This document shows, piece after piece, positions 15,701-60,200 of a stretch of DNA of 64,000 bases. Under the pieces are notes generated by a model, which saw only the letters and a list, made by a program, of their open reading frames with translations, did not search any database and had not been told where the DNA came from. Made by a program: the position numbers and the translations under genes. The stretch spans positions 1 to 64,000 of the forward strand of contig WEDG01006654.1 in the NCBI GenBank assembly GCA_017591395.1, read 5' to 3'. Every line of letters starts with the position of its first letter. The stretch's first letter is position 1. The DNA comes from Schistocephalus solidus. Its lineage: Eukaryota; Platyhelminthes; Cestoda; Diphyllobothriidea; Diphyllobothriidae.

Positions 15701-18700
15701 ACTCCGTGATGCATTTCGATACTACAACGCAATCCTAGGGTAAAACGAGATGCTGGAAAGGTTTATAAGGCAAAATTATCAATTGTTTTCAGGAAAGTAC
15801 TTAAACAAGCAAATGTTTTCCGCGTTTTCACTGACTGACCTCTAGACAAGGATGAGCGGTGCGGAAATTCTTCAGCGAAGTACCCTAGTAAAGCAATATT
15901 ATGGGCATTACAATTACGATACTTCTTCGATTGACCAGGTGCATATGCCTCTAAAATCTACAAACGAAACTTAAACCGCCATCTATGTAAAAAGTTCCGA
16001 GAACATGTCATTCAGGTTATCGTTTTAACAAAATTGGCTTCCTTTGATAAACTCACACACCAAAACCTATCATCAAGGTTAGTCCAATGAGCCAACTTAA
16101 AACGGCAAAGTATTCACGGAAATTCAAAAGACGCCGTGAAACTCAGCGGACTCCACTGTTGCCAAAAACCACAGAGTAATTTTACCAACAAGAGTTCCCT
16201 AGAGACACAGATAACGGTAGGTCTATGATAACCTCTGCCATGTAAAATAGCTGTCCAAACTCATGAAGTCTTATCTATTTCATGAGTTACGGCCCGTCAC
16301 GCGAAATCAGCGACGCTGCGTTCCCCAAACTTGTTGAGACTCAGTTTGGTCAGATCAATTGGCCTCTCGGGGAGCGCTCAGGCGAACGCATTTTCCAACG
16401 CCAGTGCCGGTGAGCCAGATGAACGAGCAATAATGACGTCAACACGGCGGACGAAATTTCAGCGGAAAACGACCCGCATTCTGGCCATCAAACAATTAAA
16501 GCACCAGAGCGCAGTCATCATCGATCAAACGGAGAAGGGGCGTTTGTTGCCGTAGGCATGTAGGAGCATAGCGACTGCATCCTATAAATACCGTATCTGA
16601 TACTGTCTCTGATGATGGGTGTGAGTTGGAATCTGAAATGCCAGGCGAATAAAGCTCTTGTTCCAGCGATCGCAACCGAGATCGACATGTACTTCCCTTA
16701 CCCGCCTGTGCGTGGTGTCAAGACAGTTAAAAAGACCGGATACGGGGTCGGGCGCAGATTAATGATCTTCCATGGAGGGAAAGCTCGGGTTGTGGCATGA
16801 CCCGGCACCTACGCGTGCCCATGTTGGGCTTGCGCAACCACCATATTCAGCATGTGTTATAGGACCGCATCCCAAGTAAAGCCTACCGCACCCTGCATTT
16901 TCCCTCGTGTTGTTCCAGCGCATCTGCCACGTGGCCCGGTTAGGGGCACACGCTTGAAGACAACTGTCTATTGACTGCACCCTTTACAAAATCAGGCCAA
17001 GGATTTCGCCCTCCTTAGGACGGGGTGGGATTTTCGATGTCAAACACCCCAGAATAATAACGCCTACCGCACCCTAATTTTTCCCCCGTGTTGGTCCAGC
17101 ACATCTGCCACGAAGCTTGTGAAACATACGGTAGACATCGTCCGACTGTCAAACTATCCGGCAGGCTTTCTAAGGTTCACAAATATGAGGGTTCCGGAGG
17201 AATAACCCGGTTAAGCAGAAGTTGTTTGTCGGAACAGAGTTCTCATATTGCTAATGATTCTGTGGCCTTAATCGACTCTCCATTGTAAAATCATTTAATG
17301 CCAAAAAATAATGAGAATGGTAATTAATTGTCCGGTAACCTTATGCGTCGTCGGGTCGGTAGCGGATGATTTAAACCGCTTCGGTTTTCTGATGTTCGAT
17401 TTGACCCTCCATCGAGGTGAGGAAGCGTACGACAAACGCTTTTCACGCCTCTGAAAAATCTACCAAAGGACTGAGGCAGCGAACGAATAGAAAAAAAGTA
17501 GATCATTTCATGGCTAATTAACTCGGGCAATCATTTAAATTTTGGCTGATACTTGGCATTAAATGCCTTGGCAATGGCCAACCAACAATGTTCTCTAAAT
17601 CTTTAGCATGATAACAACTCTGCACCGATGAGCAGCGAAGGTTTCTCAGGCAGAGATATTTTACTTCAGTTGAAGTACAAATGCGAGGCGTTCACTGTTT
17701 ACCGTTTGCTACCTGGAACTGGAAATGTCGCATGCACCGCAATCCTGGTCAACCATCGCCCGCTTAACGCAGTTATGGCTAAAAAAAGGGATTCCGGCGA
17801 GACGGTCAGTTATAAGCCATCGGAAATGTTCCCCGGAGTTATAATTGCCATAACCACCGGTGCTAATAATTGCTCCTTGCTCTGGCTTCCTGTGTGTACT
17901 TACCTTGCCTATCTGCCTAGCTGGCGTTACAGTGGGTAGAGGGTGGTTTGCAGACACAATCCTTCTGGCGGTAGTACTTCACCTTTATCGAGGCAAATGG
18001 CTGACAATTACTGCAGACTGCGCACGGATTGCCAGGTAGGGTCTTCGCTGGTCTGTGTCTGGTCGGTAGACAAGTATAGTTTGTAAAGCCTTCTCTCCCC
18101 TCTCCATCTGACTGTACTAAAATCGATTCAGTTTACGTCGTGTAATTTTTATCACGGTTTCCACGTTTCAAACTGCACCATTGTTTACCCCCCTATTTCA
18201 ATAGGAAGTATATTTTCTCTTACATTTAACAGCTTTGTCCCTTTTTGAAGATGGATGTATGAGGAACCATCAGTGTTCAGCATTCACCAAACGACAGTTT
18301 GCTTTTCATTCTCCTCCGATTTGTGCTGTGATATCGAGTTTTTGCTCTTAATTGGGTCATACCTTTCGTCGTCGTCCTCCTGCTCCTCCTGCTCCTTCTC
18401 CTCCTCCTCCTCCTCCTCCTCCTCCTCCTCCTCCTCCCTCCTCCTCCTCCTCCTCCTCCTCCTCCTCCTCCTCCTCCTCCCTCCTCCCTCCTCCTCCTCC
18501 TCCTCCTCCTCCTCCTCCCTCCTCCTCCCTCCTCCTCCTCCCTCCTCCTCCCTCCCTCCTCCTCCTCCTCCTCCTCCTCCTCCTCCTCCTCCTCCTCCTC
18601 CTCCTCCTCCTCCCTGTAATCCTCGCCCTCTCACTCCCCGTTTTTACCCCTCTATCCACCATCCTCCATATCTCACTCTCGTCCTATTCTCCATCCGTCA

Positions 18701-21700: not shown

Positions 21701-24700
21701 GTGCTCCAGTCATTTTGATGAACCGCCTTGATTATGAATCCGTTCAATCCGATTTTCTGCCCTCTGAGCTGCAGAAGACAATACCGAAATTGGCAAAACT
21801 AACGTAGCTTCTCAAACCTTTCAAAACCATGCTCAAATTACGGGTGGAAATTCGTGAACACCACCCTTAGTAGTCCTGCTTCATGTGCTCTACGTGAAGG
21901 GACTTGACTGGCCTTGTCATGGATGTATATCTAACTAACACACAAAAGCCTGCTTGAAATCGGTTGTAGTTTTTTTGGCATCTTGCAATGAGCTACTACT
22001 GGGAAGATATGCGTATGTAGATCTTCCCAAAATTACTGTGGTAACTCGGACTAACCCCTTCGGGACAAATATTTTCAGGCTCCGTTCGAACGTTAATATG
22101 AATTAAGTAGGTGTTGTTCGGTTACGTTCTTCCTCGGGTAAGTGGGGGTCGGGTTTAAGGTAAGATTATGTTTACAGTTTAGGTCTGTCTTGAGGTTATG
22201 GTTAAGGTTAAGGACCCGCGTCCCAAGGCTTCACCAATAAAACACTTATTACCGCTCATCCCTGTAAGAAACGCTCCACGGCTTAGCTATTGCTGTCCCC
22301 GACTACATACCATATCCCTGCCGAGATATGTAAACCTTTTAGTTTTACTATGACCTCGAAATGTTTACGTACTTTGTTAGGTCGCCTCTATTGTCAATCC
22401 GCTGAAAGTTGTCGGCTCAGCTATGCTTTCCGTCCCGGACACGCTTATTGGTGGTGTTTCCAGAATGTTTAACCGGAGCACCACCTCCACCGCCTTTCGT
22501 GGTAGGACAGAAAAATCCTCCTCAAATGACCCCTTCGTTCCCTCGATAGATCAGGTAAGATTTTTGCAGCAGACCTCCTAAGGCTCAGCCTTTTTCATTT
22601 GGTATTTTCTCTACCCCCGCCCTGTTCATTAACACTGCATTCCTACCAATTATGGCATTCGAATCCAGATTTTTCTACCTGGGTTATTTCTTTACATTGA
22701 AGACCGCTGACCGAGCGATTTTTCGCACGCCCGACTCAGCTGTTCAGACCACTTCCATGCCATGCTTAGACCCGACTGTCTCCTGCTCTTTGATGCACTG
22801 AGATCGGCGGCGGCCTGTAATTCCTTACCAGGCCATTCAAATATCGCATGTTACGGTCGGGAAACCCTCACTTACCTTGTACTGGGCACTTCTAACTTTT
22901 TGTCTCCTGCGTGTCACACTACTTACGTCCAAAAAGTAGGTTTTTTGGCGCTTTCTCGCACTAAACGGTGGGCGTGGGATTGAACCATTGCGACCATTTC
23001 CTCCTCCTCCTCCTCCTCCCTCCTCCTCCTCCTCCCTCCTCCTCCCTCCCTCCCTCCTCCCTCCTCCTCCTCCCTCCTCCTCCTCCCTCCCTCCTCCTCC
23101 TCCTCCTCCTCCTCCTCCTCCTTCTCCTCCTCCTCCCTCCTCCCTCCCCTGAGTCGCCTTTTTGATCGACTGACGTTCGTTGGAGCTCTCTCTCTCTCTC
23201 TCTCAATTGCATCTGTACCCGTTCGTTCACGTTTTTAAAACAATTCTATTCCACGGACTCGGATCTGGCCCGATTTGCCTATCATATACTTTCGCAGTTT
23301 TTTGACACTGCATACACTACTGACTCCTGAAATTTCTATATGAGAATTTGATTTAGTTGGAGAGCAGGCATTTAAAGGTGTTAGTTCGGTTTGTTGTAGT
23401 GAATTGATGTACAGAAAGCTGTTAATTAATAAAGAGTTCAAATCAGATTGGTATATTGATGGGAAGACAGGGCTACATGGGCCAAAATCAGGTGTATGCA
23501 GGTTTGAGAGATCACCTCGTTTTCGGAAAAAAACAAGGGCGGATGCAGTCTAAAAAACTAAGTTTTGCAAATTTATGACGTTATGTACCAAAACCAGAAG
23601 GGGCAGTAAATTGAAATTTTATCGTAAAATCTTAGTATGTTTTCGGCCACTCTCTTTTGCGTATTAAATCTTAGAACTAGACTGAAAAATAAGCATATAT
23701 ATATATCGAAAAAAATGTTCCAAGAGAAAGATAGAAGTGACTTATTTAATTTTCAGCAGAAATTGTATCCATACTTTTCAGCGAAGTCGAAAAACCGGTC
23801 AACCGTTCGCAGTTCTTCCTTTACTTTACCTTTATAAAAACGTTAAGTACGCAGACATTCGTCATCAAAACATCTAATTAAAGCGCTTTTTTTAAAAAAG
23901 GTAACTTATTACAGAAAGTTGTTTAACTAATTATAGGCATATATTTTCCCGGCTTTTGGTGTGGACATTCATTTTCCTTGGCAGCGAGTTTTCATGTTTG
24001 ACTGAGTCTGCAAATATGACCTAGACGGTAAATGCTTTTATCAAATATCTTATTTTGAAGGTTTTACTAAACAAATTGAAAAGAATCTTCATTTATGGGT
24101 AGTCGACTGAAGACACTGAAAATCGTAAAGAATTTACCACATTTTCAAAGACAATGTGAAACTCATCGTTATTGAAAACCCGAAATAGCTTTAAAGATAT
24201 TTAACAATAGAAAAGTCATATTTATATACACAAATGGTATGTTTACAATTGCACCTGACAACTATTTAAATTTATTAGTCAGTGACCGGCCTGTGAACAT
24301 GCGAGCTTGTGAAATATTACATTCCTGTGACGTTCCTATCGGCGCAATCAAGCGAAAATATATTTCCTTTACCAAACGCATCTACGGTAATGTAAAAACG
24401 GATGCAAAACTGCCAATTCTCGTGAAACAGTGTTAGAATATACACTCACATGTTAGACTGCTTGATGACGGCCATACTTTACGTTGCGCTTAAGCTAGAT
24501 GAATAAGTATGTGTAAAACTCTAAAAAAGACTATTTTCAAAATGAATTCTACTTATACAGCTTAATTCACTCGTTTAGTTGCATGGGCACGCTTCCTATA
24601 CATTTAAAACTTCAGTTTTCTCAACTGGATCGATTTTTCACCTTGTCGTTATTTGTACCTTTTCTAAAAAAGTAGTATTTTTAGACAATGTAAAAGTACG

Positions 24701-30519: not shown

Positions 30520-32345
30520 TTGGGATGTGGCATTCGTTGGCCATTTCTGACTCATTAGTTGTCATCAGCCAGTCATGCTGAACCCCAGGTGTTGCCCCAC
30601 CCTTTGCAGCTAAGGTTAAAGACAGAATAACATGACCGACGAAGACATGGGAGACTGGATTGGTATTTTCTGGCTTATTAGCCGTCATCAGCCAGCAATA
30701 CCCAACCCCAGGTTCTCTGGCACCCAAACTCGAAATCTCAAACTTTTGGGAAGGAGTCAAAAGCTCAACTCACTACACCACAAGCTCTTTGTCTTGTTGG
30801 TTTCGATCGGGAATATAAGCTTTGGTAAGTAGGCGCTCACTGATCGGTTACAGGATTTACTCGCCCCTTCGTGCCTTGGTTGTAACTCTCAAGCCCCGCC
30901 AGCAGCCTGCAGGGCGATAAGGATGTTGGCAGAAAAGCATGACCGAAGAAGACAAAGGAGACTGGAATGGCCATTTCTGACTTAAAAGCCATCCTCAGCC
31001 AGCCGTACACAACCCCAGTTGCATCGGCGCACGAGGCTTGAAGTCGCGAACTTTTTTGCAGAAGACAAACGCCCTACCCACTACGCCACGAGCTCTTTTA
31101 TTTGCCAGTTTCGATCGGGAATATAAGCTAATGTAATAACCGCTCATTGATCGGATACAGGACTCAATCTTTCTGTCGTGTCTTGGTTCTTACTCTCAAG
31201 TCCCCACCAGCAGCCTACAGGCAGATAAGGATGTAGGCAGAATATTATTACCGACAAAAACAAGGGAGACTGGAATGGACATTTCTGGCTTATTAGCCGT
31301 CATCAACCAGCAATACCAAACCCCAGACGCTGTGGCGTTCCATGCTCGAATTTTCGTAATTTTGGGCTGAAGTCAAACGCTCTACTCACTGCGCCACAAG
31401 CTCTTTGCCTTGTCGGTTTCGATCGCGAATATAATCCATGGTTAGTGGGCGCTCAGTAATCGGCTACAGGACTCACTTCGTCCTGTTGTGCCTTGGGGCT
31501 AATGCTCGAGCCCCGCCAGCAGCCTGCAGGCAGCTTAAGATGTAGGCAGTACAACTTTACCAACAAAGACAAGGGAGACTGGAATGGTCTTTTATGGCTT
31601 ATTAGCCGTCATCAGCCAGCCATACCCAACCCCATGTGCTGCGGCACCCGAGGTCGAAATTTCGAACTTTTGGAAAGGAGTCAAAAGCTCTACCTTCTAC
31701 GCCACGAGCTCTTTGTCTTGCCGTTTTCGATCGGGAATATAAGCTTTGGTAATTAGGCGCTCACTAATCGGCTACTGGACTCACTCGTCCGGTTGTGCCT
31801 TGGGGCTCATGTTCGAGCCCTGCTAGCAGCCGTTAGGCAGCTTAGGATACAGGCAGAATAACATGACCGACAAAGATAAGGGAGTCTTAAATGGCCATTT
31901 CTGCCTTTTAGTCGACATCAGCCAGCCATGCCCAACCCCAGGCTCTGCGGTGCCCGAAACTCGTAGTCGCCAACTTTTAAGAAGAATTCCAACGGCCTAC
32001 CTGCTGCGCCACGAGCTCTTTGTCTTACCGGTTTCGATCGTAAATATGAGCTTAGCTTAGTAGGCGCTAAACGATCGGTTACAGGACGTTCTCGTCGTGG
32101 TGTGCCTTGTGGCTAATGATCGAGCCCCGCCAGCAGCGTGCAGTCAGCTTATGATGTAGGCAGAAAAACATGAACAACAAAAACAAGGGAAACTGGAATG
32201 GTCATTTCTGTCTTAAAGCCGTCATCAGCCAGCCATACCAAACATTCGCGCTGCGGTGCCCGAGGCTCGAAATCGCGGAATTTCGGGCAGGAGTCATACG
32301 CGCTACCCACTGCGCCACTAGCTCAATGTCTTGCCGGTTAACTAT
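30520..32345 (-). repeat. Tandem array of tRNA-derived SINE, six units of about 308 bp
   Basis: The anchor CATGACCGAC and its variants recur near 30631, 30939, 31247, 31555, 31862 and 32169, giving a 307-308 bp period. Read on the minus strand, each unit has a tRNA-like head (GTGGCGCAGTGGGTAGAGC), a TCGAGC/TCGAAC B-box-like stretch, then a body with the hammerhead layout (CTGATGA, GGCT...AGCC hairpin, GAAATGGCCAT, CCAG) and a tail GTCTCCCTTGTC. Units differ by 10-20% by eye, so this is an old array. Several units carry core substitutions (for example GAA to TAA near 31593). Confidence 0.9.

Positions 32346-56815: not shown

Positions 56816-56820
<5 letters not shown>
56593..56820 (-). repeat. 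355-bp repeat, inverted copy 3, cut by the satellite insertion
   Basis: Matches the family up to CGGTATAATATATCTGCC, where other copies continue to the CTATATAAGAT stretch. Here a (TA)n tract and the 233-bp array begin instead, marking the insertion point. Confidence 0.8.

Positions 56821-56877
<57 letters not shown>
56818..56877. repeat. (TA)n microsatellite
   Basis: Pure TA run of about 60 bases abutting the first unit of the 233-bp array. Confidence 0.98.
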
Positions 56878-56878
<1 letters not shown>

Positions 56879-56882
<4 letters not shown>

Positions 56883-59459
56883 GGAATATATACATGTCAA
56901 ACAAGCGTATGACACTCACTGATGTGGTTAGGATCACACTTGATCCCATTACGTCCGCCCGCCAGCTAGCCACTGGCGATAAACGAACGTTGTGTCATAA
57001 GACACATGCCACATATAATTTATAGGTATGTTGCTATAGGTGCAACAGGCAAGACGTAGACAGCTGTTTCACGGTCGTTACCGATCATCAGTACGTCATA
57101 TGCCTTGTGCAGTGAGGAATATATACATGTCAAACAAGCGTATGACACTCACTGATGTGGTTAGGATCACACTTGATCCCATTACGTCCGCCCGCCAGCT
57201 AGCCACTGGCGATAAACGAACGTTGTGTCATAAGACACATGCCACATATAATTTATAGGTATGTTGCTATAGGTGCAACAGGCAAGACGTAGACAGCTGT
57301 TTCACGGTCGTTACCGATCATCAGTACGTCATATGCCTTGTGCAGTGAGGAATATATACATGTCAAACAAGCGTATGACACTCACTGATGTGGTTAGGAT
57401 CACACTTGATCCCATTACGTCCGCCCGCCAGCTAGCCACTGGCGATAAACGAACGTTGTGTCATAAGACACATGCCACATATAATTTATAGGTATGTTGC
57501 TATAGGTGCAACAGGCAAGACGTAGACAGCTGTTTCACGGTCGTTACCGATCATCAGTACGTCATATGCCTTGTGCAGTGAGGAATATATACATGTCAAA
57601 CAAGCGTATGACACTCACTGATGTGGTTAGGATCACACTTGATCCCATTACGTCCGCCCGCCAGCTAGCCACTGGCGATAAACGAACGTTGTGTCATAAG
57701 ACACATGCCACATATAATTTATAGGTATGTTGCTATAGGTGCAACAGGCAAGACGTAGACAGCTGTTTCACGGTCGTTACCGATCATCAGTACGTCATAT
57801 GCCTTGTGCAGTGAGGAATATATACATGTCAAACAAGCGTATGACACTCACTGATGTGGTTAGGATCACACTTGATCCCATTACGTCCGCCCGCCAGCTA
57901 GCCACTGGCGATAAACGAACGTTGTGTCATAAGACACATGCCACATATAATTTATAGGTTTGTTGCTATAGGTGCAACAGGCAAGACGTAGACAGCTGTT
58001 TCACGGTCGTTACCGATCATCAGTACGTCATATGCCTTGTGCAGTGAGGAATATATACATGTCAAACAAGCGTATGACACTCACTGATGTGGTTAGGATC
58101 ACACTTGATCCCATTACGTCCGCCCGCCAGCTAGCCACTGGCGATAAACGAACGTTGTGTCATAAGACACATGCCACATATAATTTATAGGTATGTTGCT
58201 ATAGGTGCAACAGGCAAGACGTAGACAGCTGTTTCACGGTCGTTACCGATCATCAGTACGTCATATGCCTTGTGCAGTGAGGAATATATACATGTCAAAC
58301 AAGCGTATGACACTCACTGATGTGGTTAGGATCACACTTGATCCCATTACGTCCGCCCGCCAGCTAGCCACTGGCGATAAACGAACGTTGTGTCATAAGA
58401 CACATGCCACATATAATTTATAGGTATGTTGCTATAGGTGCAACAGGCAAGACGTAGACAGCTGTTTCACGGTCGTTACCGATCATCAGTACGTCATATG
58501 CCTTGTGCAGTGAGGAATATATACATGTCAAACAAGCGTATGACACTCACTGATGTGGTTAGGATCACACTTGATCCCATTACGTCCGCCCGCCAGCTAG
58601 CCACTGGCGATAAACGAACGTTGTGTCATAAGACACATGCCACATATAATTTATAGGTATGTTGCTATAGGTGCAACAGGCAAGACGTAGACAGCTGTTT
58701 CACGGTCGTTACCGATCATCAGTACGTCATATGCCTTGTGCAGTGAGGAATATATACATGTCAAACAAGCGTATGACACTCACTGATGTGGTTAGGATCA
58801 CACTTGATCCCATTACGTCCGCCCGCCAGCTAGCCACTGGCGATAAACGAACGTTGTGTCATAAGACACATGCCACATATAATTTATAGGTATGTTGCTA
58901 TAGGTGCAACAGGCAAGACGTAGACAGCTGTTTCACGGTCGTTACCGATCATCAGTACGTCATATGCCTTGTGCAGTGAGGAATATATACATGTCAAACA
59001 AGCGTATGACACTCACTGATGTGGTTAGGATCACACTTGATCCCATTACGTCCGCCCGCCAGCTAGCCACTGGCGATAAACGAACGTTGTGTCATAAGAC
59101 ACATGCCACATATAATTTATAGGTATGTTGCTATAGGTGCAACAGGCAAGACGTAGACAGCTGTTTCACGGTCGTTACCGATCATCAGTACGTCATATGC
59201 CTTGTGCAGTGAGGAATATATACATGTCAAACAAGCGTATGACACTCACTGATGTGGTTAGGATCACACTTGATCCCATTACGTCCGCCCGCCAGCTAGC
59301 CACTGGCGATAAACGAACGTTGTGTCATAAGACACATGCCACATATAATTTATAGGTATGTTGCTATAGGTGCAACAGGCAAGACGTAGACAGCTGTTTC
59401 ACGGTCGTTACCGATCATCAGTACGTCATATGCCTTGTGCAGTGAGGAATATATACATG
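56879..59459 (-). repeat. 233-bp tandem array, 11 units plus 18 bp, hammerhead-bearing (retrozyme-like)
   Basis: Unit starts at 56879, 57112 and every 233 bp to 59209, then an 18-bp partial unit. Units are identical as far as I can see except for one base (T at 57960). On the minus strand each unit has a type I hammerhead layout. Each unit also has a small hairpin TGTGTC-TTAT-GACACA. The 72-codon frame repeated in every unit follows from the tandem structure and starts with GTG, so I do not call it a gene. Tandem units of 150-400 bp with type I hammerheads are known as Schistosoma SM-alpha and as metazoan small retrozymes. Confidence 0.95.
57048..57104 (-). ncRNA. Hammerhead ribozyme-like core, repeated in each 233-bp unit
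   Basis: Minus-strand order: GGCA, bulge TAT, GACGTA (stem I), CTGATGA, CGGT-AACG-ACCG hairpin (stem II), GAA, palindrome ACAGCTGT (stem III), C17, TACGTC (stem I partner), T, TGCC (outer stem I partner). The cleavage triplet is the canonical GUC, with the scissile bond between 57059 and 57058. Further copies start at 57281, 57514, 57747, 57980, 58213, 58446, 58679, 58912, 59145 and 59378. Stem III is so short that activity may need dimers, as known for newt and schistosome examples. The odd point is that stem II opens with a U-U mismatch where most hammerheads have G-C. Confidence 0.8.
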
Positions 59460-59667
59460 TTATATGTGGCCGCCAGTGGCTAGCTTGCGGTGGACGTAAT
59501 GGGATCAAATGTGATCCTAACCACATCAGTGAGTGTCATACGCTTGTTTGACATGTATATATTCCTCACTGCACAAGGCATATGACGTACTGATGATCGG
59601 TAACGACCGTGAAACAGCTGTCTACGTCTTGCCTGTTGCACCTATAGCAACATACCTATAAATTATT
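59460..59667 (+). repeat. Inverted single monomer of the 233-bp element
   Basis: One complete, circularly permuted unit in the opposite orientation to the array, running from TATATGTGG to TATAAATTAT and followed by (TA)n. It lacks about 29 bases including the TGTGTC/GACACA hairpin and differs from the array at a few other bases, so it is not a simple recent flip of an array unit. Confidence 0.9.
59577..59633 (+). ncRNA. Hammerhead ribozyme-like core in the inverted monomer
   Basis: GGCA (59577-59580), TAT, GACGTA (59584-59589), CTGATGA (59590-59596), stem II segment (59597-59610), GAA (59611-59613), ACAGCTGT (59614-59621), C (59622), TACGTC (59623-59628), T, TGCC (59630-59633). All core bases and stem pairs are the same as in the array units despite divergence elsewhere in the monomer. 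Confidence 0.8.
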
Positions 59668-59684
59668 TATATATATATATATAT
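59667..59684. repeat. (TA)n microsatellite
   Basis: Short TA run closing the 233-bp element on its right side. Confidence 0.9.
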
Positions 59685-59689
59685 TACTG

Positions 59690-59804: not shown

Positions 59805-59812
<8 letters not shown>
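59690..59812 (-). repeat. SINE-unit fragment
   Basis: GGCGCTCACCGGTCAGTTACAG and the following GGGCTAAC, GTTAGCTAAGGATATAAGCAG match the inter-head part of the 308-bp unit at 30.5-32.3 kb. Confidence 0.75.

Positions 59813-59860
<48 letters not shown>
59810..59860. repeat. (TA)n microsatellite
   Basis: About 50 bases of pure TA between two SINE pieces. Confidence 0.97.
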
Positions 59861-59864
<4 letters not shown>

Positions 59865-60146
59865 AACATTACTGACAAAGAAAAGGGAGACTGAAATGGC
59901 CATTTCTGGCTTATTAGCCATCATAAGCCAGCAACACCTAACCCCAGGCGCTGCGGCGCTCAAATCTTAACCTCGCGACCTTGTTGGGCAGTGGTCCAAC
60001 GCTCTACCAACTGCGCCACGAGCTAGTTGTCTTGCCAGTTTCGATCGGGCGCTGCAGCGCCTGGGGTTGGTTATGGCTGGCTGATGATGGTAAATAAGCC
60101 AGAAATGGCCATACCAGTCTCCCTTTTCTTTGTCAGTAATGTTATT

Positions 60147-60147
<1 letters not shown>
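59861..60147. repeat. Palindromic pair of SINE copies between (TA)n tracts
   Basis: A minus-strand copy (59861 to about 60046, with A-box match GTGGCGCAGTTGGTAGAGCG on the minus strand at 60000-60019) is joined to a plus-strand partial copy (about 60047-60147). The ends GAATAACATTACTGACAAAG and its exact complement make perfect terminal inverted repeats. The plus copy keeps an intact hammerhead core: CTGG (60077-60080), CTGATGA (60081-60087), GAA (60102-60104), ATGGCCAT, A17, CCAG (60114-60117). The minus copy has a core change (CTTATGA). Confidence 0.88.

Positions 60148-60151
<4 letters not shown>

Positions 60152-60196
<45 letters not shown>
60152..60196. repeat. (TA)n microsatellite
   Basis: About 45 bases of TA on the right of the SINE palindrome. 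Confidence 0.97.

Positions 60197-60200
<4 letters not shown>

Follow-up and report, generated by a model that had tools for sequence, protein, structure and literature searches.

The 233-bp tandem array in the window, i.e. the stretch of 64,000 nucleotides of Schistocephalus solidus DNA analysed here, is probably the product of one insertion of a non-autonomous retrozyme, in which a circular RNA was copied at a TA-rich target, most likely by a Penelope-like enzyme. With less assurance, we lean towards the broader reading that the genome records the missing step of the retrozyme cycle, namely annealing of a TA end of the target (with a dT:rG wobble) to a hammerhead-made circle and rolling-circle reverse transcription into the chromosome by an enzyme of the Penelope type, a tRNA-headed SINE and the Penelope elements following a similar TA-priming rule. 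The element itself belongs to a known kind; the novelty lies in the proposed priming sites, the mark in the first unit, the one-sidedness of the ends and the mostly clonal make-up of the arrays.

Organization of the tandem array

An earlier note on this DNA had described an array of 11 units of 233 bp with a single base difference, and both were found again at 56879–59441, followed by 19 nt of a twelfth unit up to position 59460 (Table 1). Ten of the 11 units are identical, the sole variant being an A to T change at unit position 150 of unit 5 (window position 57960), and the mean pairwise difference between the units is 0.08%. Features absent from that note are an inverted twelfth unit, a TA tract at either end, the pairing of U with U at 10.1/11.1 of the hammerhead, and a second hammerhead family. 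The inverted unit is made up of unit positions 141–132 (by eye), then 100–1, and then 233–137; we read it as a twin-primed tail with its distal end, at unit position 137, at site B beside TA.

Table 1. Coordinates of the array, of its hammerhead motifs and proposed priming sites, and of related elements (window positions unless a locus is given)
Feature	Positions	Strand
(AT)30 tract at the left (cDNA-start) end of the array	56818..56878	
Tandem array, 11.1 units of 233 bp; hammerhead-sense RNA corresponds to the minus strand	56879..59460	-
Proposed priming site A, first copy (unit positions 8-17, ATATATACAT); recurs every 233 bp	56886..56895	
Proposed priming site B, first copy (unit positions 133-147, ACATATAATTTATAG); recurs every 233 bp	57011..57025	
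Type I hammerhead motif of 45 nt, first of 11 identical ones; repeats every 233 bp, last at 59383-59427	57053..57097	-
Inverted unit with 31-bp internal deletion	59461..59666	+
Intact hammerhead motif inside the inverted unit	59584..59628	+
Short TA tract at the right end of the array	59668..59685	
Diverged tandem array, 5.6 copies of about 307 bp, tRNA-headed SINE, several copies having a hammerhead-like core, e.g. 30960-31004	30623..32339	-
Hammerhead-like core of another SINE copy, close to the 233-bp array	60075..60119	+
Penelope-like element, RVT_1 and GIY-YIG	L053:302-2121, L054:2213-4924	

The array contains no open reading frame of at least 120 amino acids, hence none for a reverse transcriptase or a GIY-YIG protein such as a Penelope-like element would encode. 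A Pfam search with six open reading frames of the window gave nothing above the cut-off and one weak match below threshold. The best protein relatives of a reverse-transcriptase reading frame in the window are found in Schistocephalus solidus (84% identity over 99%), Spirometra and Sparganum. At 18375–18613 and 22999–23147, the window also has long tracts of the TCC type, with the pyrimidines on the plus strand.

The hammerhead motif

The type I hammerhead layout which had been claimed for the minus strand is complete, at the level of sequence, in all 11 units and in the inverted copy. Each unit reads GACGTA-CTGATGA-TCGGTAACGACCGT-GAA-ACAGCTGT-C-TACGTC, with an outer GGCA/TGCC helix set off by a 3x1 internal loop, and thus contains the CUGANGA and GAA core, three stems, an NUH triplet and an open stem I. 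The predicted cut would fall where it had been placed before, between 57059 and 57058. Chance does not account for the compact geometry of the motif, since it was not matched once in 3,300 Mb of sequence (both strands) simulated by a first-order Markov process with the dinucleotide composition of the window, as compared to 13 matches in the window itself, comprising the 11 array units, the inverted copy, and one SINE copy. The covariance search with Rfam hammerhead models which the earlier note had proposed as a check counts against the hammerhead, as no match was obtained at the gathering score or at E values up to 10; a covariance model of our own was run on the 64-kb window.

The first pair of stem II (10.1/11.1) is U.U in the 233-bp family, and not a Watson-Crick pair. 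This is not disqualifying, because U10.1-U11.1 occurs in natural hammerheads and allows more cleavage than any other mispair, as stated in the available part of the source (PMC3088659); it may slow cleavage of the 233-bp hammerhead. The minimum-energy fold of a single motif lacks stem III, because the CUG of the core pairs with the CAG of that stem, and its local stability is modest (z -1.5 to -2.6). When two copies are folded together, their 8-nt palindromes pair with each other, and pairing of two hammerheads via this palindromic stem III may be needed for cutting. The predicted 233-nt circle folds with -79.6 kcal/mol, as compared to a mean of -58.4 kcal/mol for shuffled sequences, none of 300 being as low; stem I, the outer helix and stem II form in it, and stem III does not.

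In 28 of the 39 loci described below, one unit or more contains the exact 60-nt stretch of the hammerhead. A McDonald-Kreitman-like test, which set differences fixed within arrays against those between the units of an array, initially suggested selection on the hammerhead (p 0.0007); this signal was discarded as support, as subfamily variants had been counted many times over, and p rose to 0.10 once each shared variant was counted once.

Dispersed copies and uniformity of the arrays

A search of the genome (603.7 Mb, 8,019 contigs) with the 233-bp unit returned 1,586 first-look candidates, 40 of which were scored, giving at least 190 matches. The analysis covered 39 loci, i.e. the window locus and 38 of the loci L009–L047; L047 (contig C1294) was dropped as a near-duplicate of L009 (contig C2141), and L042, which is in opposite orientation, was excluded from the flank tables. 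As the best-scoring loci were sampled, the set is biased towards young, multi-unit copies.

The assignment of the array to the retrozyme-like tandem elements of metazoans, with a type I hammerhead, as put forward in the earlier note, is the best-supported reading of the sequence. Like metazoan non-LTR retrozymes, it consists of tandem units in the size range of 150–450 bp, each with a type I hammerhead motif, and non-coding copies are dispersed over dozens of loci with one-sided ends; from these ends we infer an RNA step.

The note had also invoked recent spread or homogenization. The near-identity of the units holds, whereas homogenization fits worse than birth of the array from a single RNA unit, which better explains the near-identity. 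Two observations favour such a birth: presumably older arrays contain units which differ by up to 6.5%, and arrays are mostly pure at the dimorphic unit position 27. At this position, 31 of the 35 informative arrays carry one allele only (about 11 expected from random draws), and mixed alleles occur in four (23.8 expected). Between the consensus sequences of 32 loci, the mean difference is 3.8%. Uniformity is highest in the array of the window, with its 11 units, and in that of contig C1337, whose 27 full units show a mean difference of 0.16%; the latter array, L010 (C1337:23023-29556), comprises 28 units of the same retrozyme and almost reaches the uniformity of the window array.

Ends of the arrays and inverted tails

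The ends of the arrays are one-sided. The cDNA-start end, named for the direction of growth of a cDNA made on hammerhead-sense RNA and lying on the left in the window array, falls at one of two internal sites in 29 of the 39 loci, as compared to two of 29 simple far ends (Fisher 1.6e-8). Starts lie at site A (unit positions 4–15) in 18 loci and at site B (unit positions 133–147) in 11; in L027, the start is also at B, as judged by eye. The simple far ends fit a uniform distribution (p 0.57), and none of the 29 lies at unit positions 178–182. Alternating TA makes up 80% or more of the 20 nt preceding the start end in 18 of 38 loci, and most of the other start ends follow a shorter TA run (by eye). 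Ten of the 39 loci start elsewhere than at A or B. They include the window array, which begins at unit position 1, directly after (AT)30 and 7 nt outside the TA of site A, and the first unit of which has C at position 15.

This position carries a mark of the insertion in most loci that start at site A. The first unit has T15 in 12 of 17 readable site-A loci and C15 in the other five, as compared to one T among 138 other readable units (C in 132, G in five; Fisher 3e-13); three units unreadable at position 15 were left out. By string count, a TA run followed by site A with T15 occurs at 52 places genome-wide, while T15 in the internal context occurs once. The T at position 15 of the first unit continues the TA alternation of the target. 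At site B, where later units read AATTT, the first unit is TA-like in L013, L025, L030 and L032, and L011 and L024 have TA-like first-unit letters there as judged from their left ends. Most simply, this pattern is explained by annealing of the target's 3' end to the RNA, position 15 forming a dT:rG wobble, and by subsequent extension of that end. Slippage of a microsatellite is no general explanation, because some of the TA runs are short, e.g. those of L009 and L035.

The end windows for sites A and B were fixed after a first look at the ends, and the T15 mark was spotted before it was counted, so that only six hold-out loci (L066–L071), found with another unit and read after the rule had been set, are independent of rule-setting. 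Five of the six start at A or B, the exception being L070, which begins with an inverted piece and continues with a unit from position 132. T15 is seen in L066 (first unit) and in L067 (inverted tail); in L069, the first unit has changed too much for a strict reading. Among the inverted tails, that of L067 ends at A and that of L068 at B, both beside TA, and that of L066 ends at unit position 10 without TA.

An inverted partial copy is found at the far end of 10 of the 39 loci, with its distal end at A or B in seven and elsewhere in three. In all nine readings, the inverted tails carry the position 27 allele of their own array. This match, together with the positions of the tail ends, is expected if the second target strand acts as a primer on the same RNA. 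Clear target-site duplications are rare, most being unresolvable within TA; possible ones were seen in L037 (10 bp) and L010 (7 bp).

Reading across the hammerhead junction was possible in 143 cases, and in 141 of these the length is exact. Because the arrays are mostly pure at position 27, the junction length is exact and far ends are absent from unit positions 178–182, we infer a template of one unit without an end at the cut site, i.e. a circular RNA deduced from genomic ends.

A second hammerhead family

A repeat of about 307 bp in the window has the same ungapped 45-nt hammerhead layout as the 233-bp family, with different letters in stems I, II and III. In an alignment of 12 rows from both families, picked by eye as intact from 50 SINE-family matches and 36 variant 233-family matches of 11 loci, 93.5% of the cells are paired, as compared to 19–38% with slid partners. 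The covariation score of these hand-chosen rows is above that of all 500 shuffles; seven of the 14 pairs changed on both sides, a number reached by 206 of the 500 shuffles, and 15 further pair types were counted, a number reached by 255 of the 500. The SINE pair 10.1/11.1 is mostly C.A, with U-A in some copies, and the hammerhead is minimal.

Both Pol III boxes, A and B, are perfect and lie in hammerhead sense in a 305-bp relative located in L033 (score 18 of 18), which is why we call the 305-bp family a tRNA-headed SINE; ARAGORN predicted no tRNA gene in L033. In the 233-bp unit, tRNA-like A and B boxes score within the range of shuffles. SM-alpha is a family of schistosome hammerhead repeats with a tRNA-like promoter. 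It resembles the present elements in being a flatworm hammerhead repeat, and the nearby 305–307-bp family shares the tRNA-like promoter, whereas tRNA-like boxes in the 233-bp unit do not exceed chance and the hammerhead of the second family is only short and minimal. The comparison with SM-alpha that the earlier note had drawn for the array thus suits the tRNA-headed family better than the 233-bp unit.

The sequence stretches analysed contain 45 blocks of the 305-bp SINE, of which 11 stop on their 3' side at unit position 191 and are followed by A/T-rich, mostly AT-alternating letters. Further SINE copies lie near window positions 92, 8111, 41063, 59889 and 60075. At 59808–60200, to the right of the array, two inverted SINE pieces form arms of 152 nt, including TA tracts, that are 92% complementary. 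The two different loci L024 and L033 share an identical junction of retrozyme position 136 to SINE hammerhead position 1, which is perhaps a chimeric element due to template switching.

Penelope-like elements

A genome search for GIY-YIG gave five matches, and L053 carries both RVT_1 and GIY-YIG. Twelve matches to the 3' end of the Penelope element were inspected: three run straight into TA (L053, L033 and one in L021), four have a tail ending in TA (L050, L046, L015 and one in L025), and five are not clearly at TA. In four of the 39 loci (L018, L028, L034, L035), the far end of the retrozyme is fused, within 12 nt or less, to Penelope coding sequence, in the same sense in three of the four. 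The amino-acid identity is only 34–49% in L018, L028 and L034; in L035 and its longer stretch L055, about 2.1 kb of Penelope element run on from the junction. These fusions support shared neighbourhoods and targets of the two elements. As to template jumps they are no more than suggestive, since the flanks show elevated Penelope cover at every distance from the loci (bin means 0.1–10%; 0.16% in the window). By eye, the Penelope 3' region contains CTGACGA...GAA and perhaps a short stem I, and may hold a minimal hammerhead.

Proposed mechanism

In the proposed cycle, transcription of the arrays would follow the minus strand, the resulting RNA would be cut into 233-nt monomers by its type I hammerheads, and a host ligase would circularize these. 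The steps after this are supported by the genomic ends: where TA-rich DNA is broken, in many cases within a TA microsatellite, the target's 3' end would anneal to the circle at site A (unit positions 8–17) or site B (133–147), both of which are A/U-rich and predicted to be single-stranded in the circle; by openness, they rank 2 and 7 among the 233 nine-base windows of its predicted fold. Reverse transcriptase would extend the target end for one to about 28 rounds and might stop anywhere, and the other TA target strand would sometimes prime a second cDNA on the same RNA, giving an inverted tail. Since the template would be one circle, the array would be near-identical from birth. The enzyme would most likely come from a Penelope-like element, comprising reverse transcriptase and GIY-YIG, whose own 3' ends often abut TA.

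Other templates for reverse transcription would account for parts of this pattern. A linear, uncut multimer, on which target-primed reverse transcription starts internally, is in our view an unlikely template. An element of Anolis of the Penelope-like type does use unprocessed RNA in vitro, with internal starts of reverse transcription (PMC11167929, in the part of the report available), which is a precedent, and passage of the junction at exact length in 141 of 143 cases is expected from an uncut multimer, too. However, heterogeneity should persist if there is no bottleneck of one unit, whereas the units of the most uniform arrays (11 and 27 full units) differ by 0.08% and 0.16%, other arrays reaching 6.5%, and 31 of 35 arrays are pure at position 27. 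If the template were instead a linear monomer cut by the hammerhead, with head-to-tail units arising from repeated template jumping, alleles should be mixed and the cut-site junctions irregular; the four mixed arrays among 35 (23.8 expected), the exact junctions and the lack of any of the 29 far ends at 178–182 render this extremely improbable, even if Penelope coding sequence at far ends, most clearly in L035, suggests jumps to other RNAs.

Two further readings involve DNA only. Extrachromosomal double-stranded satellite circles might be inserted or copied at broken TA repeats via microhomology, and the TA microhomology at the junctions and the target-derived sequence at the start of the array would fit strand invasion. 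We nevertheless consider this route very unlikely: a double-stranded circle predicts ends at A or B on both sides, but they are seen on the cDNA-start side (29 of 39 versus 2 of 29), where hammerhead-sense RNA predicts them. That the array is an ordinary satellite, homogenized by unequal crossing-over or gene conversion and carrying the hammerhead as a relic, would agree with its tandem, near-identical units and with the corrected p of 0.10 in the selection test; it is hardly credible in view of dozens of short arrays on separate contigs with repeatable TA ends, first units with target-like bases, and inverted tails, none of which is predicted by homogenization. Priming of a circular RNA at TA-rich targets thus remains our preferred reading.

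Comparison with known elements

Metazoan retrozymes, with platyhelminths among their hosts, were defined by Cervera and de la Pena (2020; PMC7229834), who propose, in the part of the paper available, that tandem cDNA is made from a primed circle and name Penelope elements as candidates. By that account, the present element is like metazoan non-LTR retrozymes in unit size (233 bp as compared to 170–400 bp), and shares with them the tandem arrays, the type I hammerhead in each unit, the absence of LTRs and of a protein, and a predicted compact circle. In contrast, the element described here has a U.U pair at 10.1/11.1 and lacks an Rfam match, its circle is a predicted one, and its two proposed internal priming sites and TA-rich targets have no counterpart in the available part of that paper (PMC7229834).

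As far as the accessible text on Poseidon of Anolis describes it (Frangieh et al. 2024, PMC11167929), both systems have two internal start sites of reverse transcription and A/T-rich targets, both target strands are extended, tandem copies are formed, and a hammerhead is part of the element. However, the start site of Poseidon is not homologous to the cut DNA, whereas in S. solidus the target appears to anneal, and the retrozyme is non-coding. LTR retrozymes of plants are likewise non-autonomous hammerhead elements and spread through circular RNA, according to the available part of the report (PMC4918200); they have LTRs, type III hammerheads and target duplications of 4 bp, as outlined in the accessible section of PMC7229834, unlike the element of S. 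solidus with its type I hammerhead, no LTR and no clear duplication. Among the literature matches listed, which cover few subscription papers, there is no report of tapeworm hammerhead elements or of TA-primed rolling-circle insertion.

In the literature consulted, re-entry of ribozyme-made circular RNAs into the genome is a proposal without direct evidence. The insertion ends described here indicate the start site, priming by the target, seeding by one unit and the likely enzyme, and the re-entry step thereby becomes testable with purified Penelope protein, the 233-nt circle and TA-ended DNA. Such a process would also be a general route by which satellite arrays are born uniform.
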